A DNA stretch of 64,000 nt from Halobacterium sp. DL1 (GTDB lineage: Archaea; Halobacteriota; Halobacteria; Halobacteriales; Halobacteriaceae), in NCBI GenBank assembly GCA_000230955.3, contig CP007060.1, forward strand, positions 1,922,001-1,986,000, given 5' to 3'. A program made the position numbers and the translations under genes. Shown piece after piece: positions 56,823-62,456 of this stretch. Below the pieces are notes generated by a model. The model searched no databases. It had not been told where the DNA came from and was given only the letters and a program-made list of their open reading frames with translations. Every line of letters begins with the position of its first letter. Within the stretch, counting starts at the first letter, position 1.

Positions 56823-56869
56823 TCCGTTACTGTAGTCGACTGGTGCGCAGAGAACGGGCGTCCCTGGAC

Positions 56870-57097
56870 TTAGCTCGGGACGACGTCCTCGCACCCGATC
56901 TTCGTGCGGGCGTTGACGAGACCGGGGCCCGCACGGTCGAGCGACACCCCGTCAGACGCCTCGACTGACTTGTCGAAGCCGTGGCTGGGGCTGTCACAGG
57001 CCGGATTCTCGTCGGAGGGCGCTGCGGAGACAGTACCCGCACCAGCGACGACTAGCAACAGCACAGACACCACGGCGACGACTCGTGTCGTATTCAT
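56870..57097 (-). CDS. Small secreted protein with two cysteines
   Basis: A 75-residue protein: signal peptide MNTTRVVAVVSVLLLVVAGAG-TVSA cleaved near A27, leaving about 49 residues with ENPACDSPSH and ARTKIGCEDVV, so a disulfide is possible. No lipobox cysteine. The mature part is short and polar. It lies between the citrate-synthase-like gene (convergent) and the HalOD1 pair. Function unknown. Confidence 0.65.
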   Translation of the reverse strand: MNTTRVVAVVSVLLLVVAGAGTVSAAPSDENPACDSPSHGFDKSVEASDGVSLDRAGPGLVNARTKIGCEDVVPS

Positions 57098-57214
57098 ACC
57101 GACAGATTCGCCGGCCACGAAGTTAAGCATTGGCCGACGGCCGTTCCACCTCTACTGCGGCCTCACGCGCCGGACGAGCGTGCGGTCGAGGGGGAGGGCC
57201 GCGGCATCGACCAG

Positions 57215-57553
57215 TCACTGGTCACCGGACTCTCCGTCCGCTGTCCCACGGATGGCCTGCTGCACGGCGATAGTTCCCCCGCTGCCGATGGTCGCTCGAA
57301 CGCCGAGGGTATCCACAGTCACCTCGACGGAGTGGTCGCCGTTCCGTGACTCGATGATGGTGTCCAGCGCGCCAAGGTCGACGGCGTCGCCGACCGGGTC
57401 GAGCGAGAGGGGGTCCGTGCCCTTGGCCGCGGCGATTGCCTCCACGAGGGCGAGACTCGGTGCCTCGCGCTCGACATCGAAGGTGGAGTGGTGTGTCTTC
57501 GTATCGACGAACGGCGTCGGGTCGGAGACGTCGTCGGCGTCGGTCACTGTCAC
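57215..57553 (-). CDS. HalOD1 output-domain protein
   Basis: A 112-residue stand-alone HalOD1 domain. The pattern SLALVEAIAAAKGTDPLSLDPVGDAVDLGALDTII (region 33-67), followed by the strands SVEVTVDTLGVRATIGSGGTIAV, matches the family. It overlaps the upstream HalOD1 gene by 4 bp (ATGA), so the two make a translationally coupled pair. A Halobacteria-specific fold related to signal output; partner unknown. Confidence 0.82.
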   Translation of the reverse strand: MTVTDADDVSDPTPFVDTKTHHSTFDVEREAPSLALVEAIAAAKGTDPLSLDPVGDAVDLGALDTIIESRNGDHSVEVTVDTLGVRATIGSGGTIAVQQAIRGTADGESGDQ

Positions 57554-57882
57554 ACCTGTGCTGCTGGCACACGGTGGTCGGAATCCCTGAGCGGAGCGAA
57601 CCGTATCCGGCCGTCGCTCCCGACTGTCACGCGGTGGCCGTGGAACTCGAAGGAGAGGGTGGCGCTCTCGTCGGCACCGCGAACGTGCCTGTCGAGAGCG
57701 TCGGGGTCGACGGTGTGCGCGAGTGGCCGCATCTCCCTGGGGTCGTCATCAGTGAGCGAGCTGAGCGAGAGGACTAGAGTCGTGGTGACGTCCAACGCGC
57801 TGTCGCCGTCGTGGTGTACTTCGTAGGTCTCCGTGCGGGGGTCGTACGACGGGTGAACGGCATCCGCGTGAGTAGAAACCAT
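57550..57882 (-). CDS. HalOD1 output-domain protein
   Basis: A 110-residue HalOD1 protein: RTETYEVHHDGDSALDVTTTLVLSLSSLTDDDP (16-48), REMRPLAHTVDPDALDRHV, and the hairpin LSFEFHGHRVTVGSDGRIRF near 75-94. It is the first gene of the pair. The 260 bp upstream to 58142 contain no gene. Confidence 0.8.
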   Translation of the reverse strand: MVSTHADAVHPSYDPRTETYEVHHDGDSALDVTTTLVLSLSSLTDDDPREMRPLAHTVDPDALDRHVRGADESATLSFEFHGHRVTVGSDGRIRFAPLRDSDHRVPAAQV

Positions 57883-58142
57883 GGTCGGTCGGAGAGTTAT
57901 AGACCACTGACTGACTTGTATTCACCGTTTCACTGGTGGAAGGGAAACCCGGTCGTGGGACCGTGGCCAACGATGACCACTGTCCGATGACTGTCTCCGT
58001 TGCCCACTGCGTGGGACGTGGGCCAGACGTGGGACGGCTGATCGTTGGAAGCGCGCTGCTCGGTCGCAGAGGTCGGACGGCTGGGGACAGAAGCGGGCCG
58101 CGTCACAGCGACAGCGGGGAGAAATTGGGCTGCCAGTCAGCG
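57883..58142. other. 260-bp spacer without a visible gene
   Basis: Lies between the HalOD1 pair and the HTH gene. It contains the promoter region of the HalOD1 pair: an AT-rich block at 57890-57925. No repeat or RNA signature stands out. Confidence 0.4.
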
Positions 58143-59036
58143 CTACAGCGTCACGGATTCGGCGTCGGAGAGGTGTCGAGCGTAGAGGCCCTCGGCCCAC
58201 TCGACGGCTGCCGGGTCGCGGCACTCGACGAAGATCTCGGCGTTGCCGTTGTCGTTGTGGGCGGCCATCCCGACCCGCCCGTCGGCGATGAACAGTTCGA
58301 AGGGGAGGCCGGTGTGCGCGTAGACGTCGAAGTTGCCCGTCGAGATGGTCTCGTAGGCCTTCTCGGGGTACTCCGAGAGCATGATGTCGATGAGCTCCTC
58401 GTCGAATATGGCGTCGATCTCCATCCCGTCCATCATCTCGCGGTAACCGACGTCGACGTAGACGGGAGAGAGGACCGTCGAGAGCATTCGGAGCCGGTCG
58501 GACTGTTCGATGAACTCGATAATCCGGTGGATGGTGGTGTGTGGCTGCCGGGCCTTCCGGCGCACGACCATCGCGTCGGTGAAGTGTTCGACCGGCACCG
58601 ACACCGCCTGCCGGTCGACGGAGTTGAGGAACTGGTCGAGCGAGAGCGCGGTCGCCGTCCGGGTGTCGAACGTCTCGGCGCCACGGGAGACGATGGTCCC
58701 GACGCTCGTGAGGCGGTACTCGTCGCCCGACGCCTCGACCAGCCCGTGGTCCGTCAGCGAGTTGAGCGCGCGGTGGAGGGTCGACCGCGAAACGTCGACG
58801 TCGTCGAGGATGTCGCCGGGGCTCGCCGGCCCGGAGCGCAGTGCCTGCAGGAGCGGGCGCCGCCGGACCACCTCCAGGAGGAACTCCTGGCTTCGCTCCT
58901 CTGCACTCTCCAAACCGTTCCGCGACGCGTTCGCCAGTCCCTCCTGCGGGCTGCTGTCCTCGCGGCCGTCCTCGAAGACGTCCGTTCCGCCGTCGGTGAG
59001 CGCATCGACTTCGTGGACTGCTGGTTCATCCGTCAT
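58143..59036 (-). CDS. Large HTH regulator with C-terminal ligand-type domain (TrmB-like layout)
   Basis: A 297-residue regulator. Residues 50-110 form a winged helix: RSQEFLLEVVRRRPLLQAL, GPASPGDILDDVDVSRSTLHRALNSLTDHGLVEA as a region (69-102). The rest is a mixed alpha/beta domain with IIEFIEQSDRLRMLSTVLSPVYVD and GRVGMAAHNDNGNAEIFVECRDP, the layout of haloarchaeal TrmB/HTH-DUF1724-like regulators. Its start overlaps the terpene-synthase-like gene's stop by 4 bp (ATGA), making it the third gene of that operon and probably its regulator. Confidence 0.82.
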   Translation of the reverse strand: MTDEPAVHEVDALTDGGTDVFEDGREDSSPQEGLANASRNGLESAEERSQEFLLEVVRRRPLLQALRSGPASPGDILDDVDVSRSTLHRALNSLTDHGLVEASGDEYRLTSVGTIVSRGAETFDTRTATALSLDQFLNSVDRQAVSVPVEHFTDAMVVRRKARQPHTTIHRIIEFIEQSDRLRMLSTVLSPVYVDVGYREMMDGMEIDAIFDEELIDIMLSEYPEKAYETISTGNFDVYAHTGLPFELFIADGRVGMAAHNDNGNAEIFVECRDPAAVEWAEGLYARHLSDAESVTL

Positions 59037-60052
59037 TTGAGACCCCTCGTCATCAGGTGGTACTCCATCACGGTCTCGATCCCGTCGAGGTACGACCCGA
59101 CGTCGACGGAGTCGAACGCTCCCTCGAACTCTCTCGCGGCGGCGAGTTCCTCGCTCCACTGGCGGAGGAACAGGTCCTCGACGTCGTGCTCGTGGATGGT
59201 TCGGCGTATCTCGGCGACCTCGTGTTCACCCCCGTCTTCCCGGGACGCGGCCAGCTGGTCGGCCGAAACGATGCCCGACTCGAGCGCGTGCGCTACGATT
59301 CCCGACGTGAAGTCGCCCTCGGCGACCTCCCGCTCCCAGGTGGTCACCCAGTTGCCGATGCGGACCATCCGCTGTGCCCGCTCGAGCACCCGACGGAGCG
59401 CGGACAGGTCCGAGCGGTCGAACGACGGCGACAGCGTGAGGTCGACGTCGGCGAACCCGTACAGCATCATGTTGTGGGCGTCGTACGTCTGGAGCTCCGA
59501 TTCTGTGATGGCGTCGAGGTGCTGGTTCGCGAGGTAGGAGTACTCCATCGCAGTGACGACCTGCCTGAGGTCGAACCGGACGACGTCGTCGAACTCGGCG
59601 GCCCGCGGGCCCGCCCGGAGTCCGGCCGAGAACTCGTCCCAGACGTCGCTCGCGAACGCGAGGACATCGGTGTCGACGCCGTCGCGGTCGTAGTCGACGA
59701 CCCGGTGGTCGAACGGCAGCTTCGCGGCCTCGTCGAACGTGGCCCAGTCCTGTTGCTTCTCGGCGACGTCGTCGAGGACGCTGACGAACATGAGCCCGAG
59801 CAGTTTCGTGTTCTGGGCCCGCTCGCGGTGCTCCGGGGCGACACACGAGAGCGTGAACTCCGGGAAGAGGTGGTGGGCCCACTTCCAGAGGAACTGGTCT
59901 CGGTCGCCGACGACCGTGTCGTACGCCTCGACCAGCGGCAGCGTCTGTTCGGGGAGCTGGTGGTTCTGGATCTGCTCGAGGGGCGCTCGCAGCTCCGCGA
60001 CCTTGTGTGGCTGCGGCTGGCCGTCCGTCGATGTGCTGTCTCTGATTGTCAT
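59033..60052 (-). CDS. Divergent class I terpene-synthase-like protein
   Basis: A 339-residue, almost all-helical protein. Two motifs suit a class I terpenoid synthase: the aspartate-rich SVLDDVAEKQQD (91-102, D94/D95) and RIGNWVTTWEREVAEGD (231-247), whose N234-x3-T238-x3-E242 fits the NSE metal triad except for W235 in place of D. The spacing is 140 residues, as in bacterial sesquiterpene synthases. The usual diphosphate-sensing Arg (about 46 residues before NSE) and C-terminal RY pair are not recognisable. Substrate is unknown; it may be a synthase, a prenyl-binding homologue, or another alpha-helical family. It sits between two regulators in one operon. Confidence 0.55.
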   Translation of the reverse strand: MTIRDSTSTDGQPQPHKVAELRAPLEQIQNHQLPEQTLPLVEAYDTVVGDRDQFLWKWAHHLFPEFTLSCVAPEHRERAQNTKLLGLMFVSVLDDVAEKQQDWATFDEAAKLPFDHRVVDYDRDGVDTDVLAFASDVWDEFSAGLRAGPRAAEFDDVVRFDLRQVVTAMEYSYLANQHLDAITESELQTYDAHNMMLYGFADVDLTLSPSFDRSDLSALRRVLERAQRMVRIGNWVTTWEREVAEGDFTSGIVAHALESGIVSADQLAASREDGGEHEVAEIRRTIHEHDVEDLFLRQWSEELAAAREFEGAFDSVDVGSYLDGIETVMEYHLMTRGLK

Positions 60053-60059
60053 CGTGGTA

Positions 60060-60458
60060 TCACTCGGTCGCTCCGTCGCCCGTCTCAGTCGGCCCGAGGA
60101 ACGACTCCAGGCGCTCGGACCCGTGGTACTCGACAGTCCCCTCCTCGAGGCCGTAGAACAGGAGGCCCGCGTCGGCCAGTTTCGGGAGGTGGACGTGGTG
60201 GAGGTTGGTCGCCACGCGCTGGCGATGAGTCCCCGGTCCGGAGTCTGGACACTCGCTCTCGACGACGACGGCGACGAGGTCGTCGAAGTCGACGGTGATG
60301 CCTGGTCGAGTCGCGAGGAACGACACGACGGTGCGTCGGCGCCCGCTCGCGAGCAGGCGGTGACGTTCGTCCCGCGGAATCTCACCCTGCTGGGGTGTCT
60401 GGTGGCTGTCGTTGCGGAATGCGGCAGTATCCCGCTCCGTGGGACTCTCGTCACTCAT
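60060..60458 (-). CDS. DUF7344-type winged-helix regulator
   Basis: A 132-residue protein. Helix 1: RDERHRLLASGRRRTVVSFLATR (29-51), then GITVDFDDLVAVVVESE, and the arginine-rich recognition helix HRQRVATNLHHVHLPKLADAGLLFYG (78-103), with a wing and polar tail. H-x-R-x-x-x-x-L-H-H-x-x-L-P-K-L is the typical DUF7344 pattern of haloarchaea. It is the first gene of the operon; its stop is 7 bp before the terpene-synthase-like ATG. Confidence 0.85.
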   Translation of the reverse strand: MSDESPTERDTAAFRNDSHQTPQQGEIPRDERHRLLASGRRRTVVSFLATRPGITVDFDDLVAVVVESECPDSGPGTHRQRVATNLHHVHLPKLADAGLLFYGLEEGTVEYHGSERLESFLGPTETGDGATE

Positions 60459-60485
60459 GCGAGTGCGCCCACGCCGTTGGCGGGG

Positions 60486-60493
60486 TTAAGCTT
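60486..60493 (-). promoter_or_regulatory. TATA-like box of the terpene-synthase-like operon
   Basis: On the minus strand AAGCTTAA is 28-35 bp before the start codon at 60458, standard for a leaderless transcript. Confidence 0.5.
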
Positions 60494-60499
60494 TGTCTG

Positions 60500-60549
60500 T
60501 AGGAGAGTCCTAATTCTGCCCCCTGTGCCTCTAGGACGCCCCTACCTAG
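60500..60549 (-). promoter_or_regulatory. Candidate operators upstream of the terpene-synthase-like operon
   Basis: TAGGA-gag-TCCTA (60500-60512) is a perfect palindrome immediately upstream of the TATA/BRE position, fit for an activator. A second inverted repeat, CTAGG-N9-CCTAG, lies at 60531-60549, and CTAGG recurs at 60578-60582. Two regulators are encoded in the operon itself. Confidence 0.5.
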
Positions 60550-60597
60550 CGTTTCCGCCCAGTAGATTGAACCCTGTCTAGGCTGACGTAGTGGTCG

Positions 60598-62183: not shown

Positions 62184-62456
62184 ATGAGTGAGGAGAGCAG
62201 CCCCGAGGTCGTTCGCCGGAAACTGGACCCGGAGCGAGGGGAGCCGAACGTCCAGGTCGCCGAAATCGTCGCCGACATCAAGGACACGGAGCCGGCCGAA
62301 CTGGAGAACATGTACGGCTGCATCGACCATACAATCGACCACATCTTCTCGAACCCGCCGTCGTCCGAGGCGGACGTCGAGGTCAGGTTCAGCTACGAGG
62401 GCTGTCGAATCACGGTCGAACAGAACGGGGAGGCGACGTTTGTGAACACCCGGTAA
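62184..62456 (+). CDS. HalOD1 output-domain protein
   Basis: A 90-residue protein with HalOD1 features: NVQVAEIVADIKDTEPAELENMYGCIDHTIDHIF as a region (22-55), then the strands VEVRFSYEGCRITVEQNGEATFV. One of four HalOD1 genes in the window and the only one on the plus strand. Transcribed alone with an 180-bp upstream gap in which an AT-poor promoter must lie. Confidence 0.8.
   Translation: MSEESSPEVVRRKLDPERGEPNVQVAEIVADIKDTEPAELENMYGCIDHTIDHIFSNPPSSEADVEVRFSYEGCRITVEQNGEATFVNTR

Follow-up and report, generated by a model that had tools for sequence, protein, structure and literature searches.

An accessory operon of Halobacterium sp. DL1 encoding a divergent class I terpene synthase-like protein and its putative regulators

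The window, by which is meant the whole 64,000-nt stretch of DNA that was analysed, comes from Halobacterium sp. DL1 (assembly GCA_000230955.3, contig CP007060.1, positions 1,922,001-1,986,000 of the forward strand). It contains a minus-strand operon of three genes, in which the gene of a DUF7344 protein is followed after a 7-bp gap by that of a 339-residue protein, which in turn overlaps the gene of a winged-helix regulator by the four nucleotides ATGA (Table 1). A preliminary description, made from the sequence alone, had correctly reported this tight layout and the DUF7344 identity of the first gene product, but its assignment of the third product as TrmB-like failed: this protein scores above the cut-offs for HVO_A0261_N (PF25213, E 5.4e-23, 81.1 bits) and FilR1_middle (PF08350, E 1.7e-30, 106.2 bits), and its match to TrmB is below the Pfam cut-off. 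The extent of the unit had also been understated, as the module to which the operon belongs spans approximately 56823-60597 and includes two HalOD1 genes. Of the palindromes said to lie near the promoter, one imperfect and poorly conserved inverted repeat was confirmed.

Table 1. Features of the operon and of the accessory module around it (positions in the window)
Feature	Position	Strand	Basis
DUF7344 protein, 132 aa (operon gene 1)	60060..60458	-	Pfam PF24035, E 2.8e-16
Class I terpene synthase-like protein, 339 aa (operon gene 2)	59033..60052	-	AlphaFold2 fold, fold matches, hhalign, motif conservation
HVO_A0261_N winged-helix and FilR1_middle regulator, 297 aa (operon gene 3)	58143..59036	-	PF25213, PF08350
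HalOD1 protein, 110 aa, signal-transduction output domain (accessory module)	57550..57882	-	PF18545, E 7.2e-17
Second HalOD1 protein, 110 aa	57215..57547	-	PF18545, E 1.2e-13
Small ORF, 86 aa, signal-peptide-like N-terminus, two Cys (inside module)	56870..57130	-	Relatives in G010, L080
Inverted repeat, 14-nt arms, 86%, 19-nt spacer, upstream of operon (candidate operator)	60499..60545		
Accessory module, 3.8 kb, between citrate synthase and DUF1028 genes	56823..60597		blastn against genus members

The module consists of the DUF7344, synthase and regulator genes, the two HalOD1 genes and the 86-residue, secreted-looking ORF. In blastn comparisons with members of the genus, one genome (G010) keeps collinearity with the window across this region, and in place of positions 56823-60597 two others have only about 40 bp (G007) or about 1 kb (G005), so that a sister genome is without the 3.8-kb module. 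Thus, the module is a unit that has been gained or lost within the genus, the direction of the change being unsettled. Its GC fraction (0.66) is close to that of its flanks (0.67-0.68), so that composition gives no mark of foreign origin. The small ORF, which has 64% identity to its relative in G010 and a weak match (E 5.5e-4) at another cassette locus (L080), may encode a small secreted protein of the module. No genes for tailoring enzymes or prenyl synthases were found within the module of the window; the genome encodes two polyprenyl synthases, which are inferred to supply substrate to the synthase. The flanking DUF1028 gene also encodes a peptidoglycan-binding domain, and just past it and a DUF7528 gene lies a third stand-alone HalOD1 gene (62184-62456, E 5e-18).

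The AlphaFold2 model of the 339-residue protein, built on a 16-row alignment (pLDDT 89.3, pTM 0.87), has the all-alpha fold of class I terpenoid synthases. The top 50 rows of the VIA-align comparison are all terpene synthases with Z scores of 20-22, including the pimarane-type diterpene synthase Sat1646 (Z 22.0) and taxadiene synthase (Z 21.7, rmsd 3.0 Å over 263 residues), and Foldseek returned terpene synthases and also farnesyl diphosphate synthases. A profile of 55 relatives was aligned by hhalign with terpene synthases of Chloroflexota at a probability of 95.5 (E 1.4e-8), and the two metal motifs coincided in this alignment. The evidence from sequence comparison of the protein by itself is weak: it scores 12.6 bits against Terpene_syn_C_2 (PF19086), below the gathering cut-off of 23.7, and this family is matched by 10 of 16 relatives at E<=1 (best 2.4e-6). 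There was no match to the prenyl diphosphate synthases of PF00348 or to any family of NCBIfam. The PDB, searched by sequence with phmmer and with a profile, also gave no match, so the family link rests on the fold and on profile-profile comparison. A PF19086 search of the genome from which the window was taken, run without a positive control, found nothing at E 1e-3. Taken with the motif evidence, the protein is probably a member of a new archaeal branch of class I terpene synthases, for which activity, substrate and product are inferred only.

The aspartate-rich motif of the protein is D94-D95-V-A-E98, a complete DDxxE, and the ligands of its NSE motif are N234, T238 and E242. The NSE metal ligands of class I terpene synthases are N, S or T, and E. 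In an alignment of 65 sequences, D95, N234 and E242 are each present in 65/65, D94 in 63/65 (replaced once by E and once by N) and T238 in 64/65 (replaced once by S), and residue 98 is E or D in 65/65. The 16-row alignment, in which an anammox bacterium is represented at 22% and a Chloroflexaceae MAG at 27%, has D94, D95, N234, T238 and E242 without exception. This conservation among 65 relatives shows that the two motifs are not due to chance. Their spacing of 140 residues compares with 138-145 in most of the bacterial terpene synthases fetched for comparison. The second site, N/T/E, is not the second DDxxD of prenyl diphosphate synthases. The D that is usual at NSE +1, a position that is not a ligand and at which D is not required for membership, is absent from the window protein; W235 is found there, as it is in 65/65 sequences. 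Since this position is not a ligand, the metal triad is intact. R241 occupies NSE +7, a position usually taken by K or R, and is kept in the relatives. W58, D204, W235, W239 and D247 are also invariant in the 65-sequence alignment and mark a separate family.

Two features that are common, not universal, in class I terpene synthases are absent from the protein. Q188 is found where a pyrophosphate-sensor Arg would lie, 46 residues before the NSE motif, and there is no conserved Arg at this position in the family; there is also no C-terminal RY pair, the protein ending in MTRGLK. Diphosphate binding must therefore differ; the basic residues conserved across the archaeal family are R51, K83, R220, R231 and R241. 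The -46 Arg was found in 11/18 bacterial sequences used for comparison, the same 11 having an RY pair approximately 84-94 residues after the NSE Asn, and the remaining sequences, which belong to other branches, likewise lack this Arg. Bacterial enzymes without the sensor, or with RF for RY, are known still to convert FPP at low yield (PMC10509563).

The terpene-synthase-like identity given to this protein in the preliminary description is thus supported by fold, profile and motif evidence: the fold matched class I terpene synthases and no other helical family, and homologues keep both motifs. The positions of D94-D95 and of N234/T238/E242, and the distance between them, were given correctly; the listing of D94-D95 by itself as the Asp-rich motif was correct only in part, E98 having been overlooked. 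The W reported in place of the second Asp/Asn of a metal triad is real and leaves the triad unbroken, and the diphosphate-sensing Arg and RY pair reported as not found are truly absent. The term "divergent" is upheld by these absences and by the score below the Pfam cut-off; "repurposed", the other term offered, is not needed because all of the metal ligands are conserved.

The synthase gene is patchily distributed, being found in 54/195 haloarchaeal relatives and in only 2 of 13 members of the genus of the window, where the protein of G010 is 72% identical to that of the window. Identity to the window protein is no more than about 40% for many relatives and falls to 23-28% for some. Outside Halobacteriales, seven of ten tested carriers have mcrA, and so these seven are methanogens; DDxxD and NxxxTxxxE are retained in the copies examined, and the ligands are conserved in most methanogen copies. 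The gene was also found in an anammox bacterium (L014) and in 1 of 251 genomes of Chloroflexota, on a MAG contig of 3.6 kb. Copies broken by stop codons (L030 and L036) or without the metal motifs (L116) were noted, and suggest that the gene is dispensable. In three methanogens (L112, L113 and L114) the synthase gene is near genes that, judged by eye only, resemble those of PHP-domain proteins and geranylgeranyl reductases.

Co-inheritance of the FilR1-type regulator with the synthase was evident from a search of the 195 genomes. The nine best relatives of the regulator, from nine different genomes, are each encoded within approximately 150 bp of a synthase gene, with scores that fall from 648 to 218 bits; an unlinked relative comes tenth at 185 bits. 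The same search yielded well over a hundred paralogues, with tens of candidates per genome. Genomes of several families repeat the order DUF7344-synthase-FilR1-HalOD1 (L046, L047, L048, L052 and L054), and the order synthase-FilR1-HalOD1 is found at L049 and L078; a HalOD1 gene is thus downstream at each of these loci (L046-L049, L052, L054 and L078), with a second copy at L046. The DUF7344 protein is inferred, with reasonable confidence, to be a regulator. The inverted repeat lies approximately 40-90 bp upstream of the first ATG of the operon and has the outer ends GTAGG...CCTAC; of the two relatives checked, the close relative G010 partly keeps these half-sites and G172 does not. It may be an operator, its conservation being weak. 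Control of this operon by its own regulators is inferred, as their target has not been demonstrated.

Signalling genes are also concentrated around the synthase genes of other genomes. Among 90 immediate-neighbour proteins there were 16 with PAS, 11 with HATPase_c, 9 with FilR1_middle and 7 with DUF7344 domains, compared with one HATPase_c and at most one of each of the others among 90 distant genes of the same loci ("at most" because the counts list only 25 families per set). The Fisher tests applied to these neighbours treat proteins as independent, which those of related loci are not. A signalling gene is within two genes of 27/44 synthases and of 13/143 control positions, a test that is partly circular because its query set was taken from synthase neighbours; gene calls in the relatives are our own. 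The dedicated regulation that the preliminary description had proposed for the operon is strengthened by these statistics and by the position of the regulator's closest relatives beside the synthase, and remains an inference as far as control is concerned.

In other lineages the gene beside the synthase encodes a PAS kinase, a Bat regulator, a KaiC protein or a cytochrome P450. In the anammox bacterium, and in three methanogens (L110, L111 and L117), a PAS kinase is encoded within two genes of the synthase. Across a 56-sequence tree, five changes of neighbour type were counted for FilR1, eight for kinases, two for KaiC and three for P450, so that different lineages appear to pair different sensors with the same enzyme. 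A P450 gene adjoins the synthase at L015, is between two synthases at L059 and is one gene away at L060; among the P450-bearing haloarchaeal relatives that were scored, each has only about 1-7 P450s. The presence of a P450 beside the synthase is taken, by inference, to support an oxidisable terpenoid product. P450 was rejected as a fixed tailoring partner, being found at only three loci, and a metallo-beta-lactamase neighbour was rejected as part of the system, being mainly a matter of synteny within one clade. The most cluster-like arrangement found (L059:7735-14228) has two synthase paralogues flanking the P450 gene, and a third copy is elsewhere in that genome. The Bat-type neighbours raised the possibility of a conserved association with rhodopsin or carotenoid genes; the two rhodopsin genes seen were both among the distant control genes.

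The reading that we consider likely is that the locus encodes a regulated accessory terpene synthase. The module would be a horizontally patchy accessory unit that makes a terpene on demand, its middle gene encoding a single-domain class I terpene synthase. D94-D95-x-x-E98 together with N234/T238/E242 would bind three Mg2+ ions and remove diphosphate from a prenyl diphosphate, putatively FPP or GGPP from the cell's own prenyl synthases, and the resulting carbocation would then cyclise or be quenched to give a hydrocarbon or an alcohol. The DUF7344 and FilR1-type regulators, and probably the two HalOD1 proteins also, would couple expression to a signal. Catalysis, substrate, product, the action of the regulators and the signal are all inferred.

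Several other explanations were weighed. An isoprenoid-diphosphate enzyme of class I fold that is not a cyclase (for example a prenyl elongase, a prenyltransferase, or a maker of linear alcohols or dienes by release of diphosphate) would be consistent with the farnesyl diphosphate synthases among the Foldseek matches, and loss of the pyrophosphate sensor and RY pair could weaken closure of the active site. This explanation is nevertheless unlikely, as the second motif is an NSE triad rather than the second DDxxD of prenyl synthases, the 50 best structural matches by Z score are exclusively terpene synthases, and the P450 partners at three loci suggest a released scaffold. It is much less probable that the protein has the terpene synthase fold without catalysis and now serves the adjoining signalling proteins as a regulatory or ligand-binding partner. 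Its strong association with signalling genes and the absence of substrate-anchoring residues would fit such a role, but the metal ligands are near-invariant in about 65 relatives, some of them only 23-28% identical, and R241 is retained; conservation of these ligands is not to be expected of a protein without catalysis.

That the operon is a coincidence, with unrelated regulators in a region where HTH and HalOD1 genes are plentiful, is similarly improbable. Haloarchaea do have many paralogues of these regulators, but all nine of the regulator's closest relatives in 195 genomes adjoin a synthase, and the four-gene order recurs in several families, with 4-bp overlaps. A bolder reading, also doubtful, is that the locus encodes an archaeal counterpart of the LuxI/LuxR pair that signals with a terpenoid, in which the product of the synthase would be sensed by the FilR1_middle regulator (elsewhere by the adjacent PAS kinase or Bat regulator), or in which control would be by density, light or redox state. 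If this were true, a common signalling language based on terpenes would extend from haloarchaea to methanogens and an anammox bacterium.

Archaeal membranes are built from isoprenoids. No characterised archaeal class I terpene synthase was found in the open-access PMC literature searched, and according to a survey of 2023 only halocin and the carotenoid bacterioruberin are archaeal secondary metabolites confidently linked to genes (PMC10105419). Nearly two thousand archaeal "terpene" clusters have been predicted (PMC12144867), the overlap of which with this synthase family is unchecked. The existence of a widespread synthase branch in both haloarchaea and methanogens would imply archaeal terpenes that have so far escaped notice. 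Because sensors recur beside the enzyme, its trigger is open to testing, and mechanistic insight would come from salt-tolerant synthases whose diphosphate-binding site is altered.

Among known systems, the FilI/FilR1 operon of Methanosaeta harundinacea (PMC3991700) has in common with the window a regulator with a PF08350 middle domain and an N-terminal winged helix, and also joins regulation to small-molecule synthesis, in that case of carboxyl-AHL; the REC domain and the kinase partner of FilR1 have no counterpart in the window regulator. The haloarchaeal "terpene" clusters called by antiSMASH are phytoene synthase and bacterioruberin clusters (PMC11364659), which likewise concern isoprenoid products, but their core gene crtB encodes a squalene/phytoene synthase and not a class I cyclase. 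The spiroviolene-related synthases of S. sclerotialus and S. catenulae (PMC10509563) tolerate loss of accessory residues with weak activity, a loss that the archaeal family shares; only one of the two features is missing from each of them, whereas in the archaeal family neither is present and the residue at NSE +1 is W. Class I terpene synthases are already known, best from plants, fungi and bacteria. Among the closest known systems are the bacterial enzymes of this class (PF19086), such as hydropyrene synthase, Sat1646, epi-isozizaene synthase and 10-epi-cubebol synthase. From these the window protein differs in its archaeal origin, its low identity (approximately 10-17%), its W for D at NSE +1 and its lack of the -46 Arg and RY pair, and five invariant residues (W58, D204, W235, W239 and D247) are the archaeal family's own; shared with them are the fold (Z approximately 20-22), the Asp-rich motif, the NSE ligands, the spacing of the motifs, the Arg or Lys at NSE +7 and the size of the protein.
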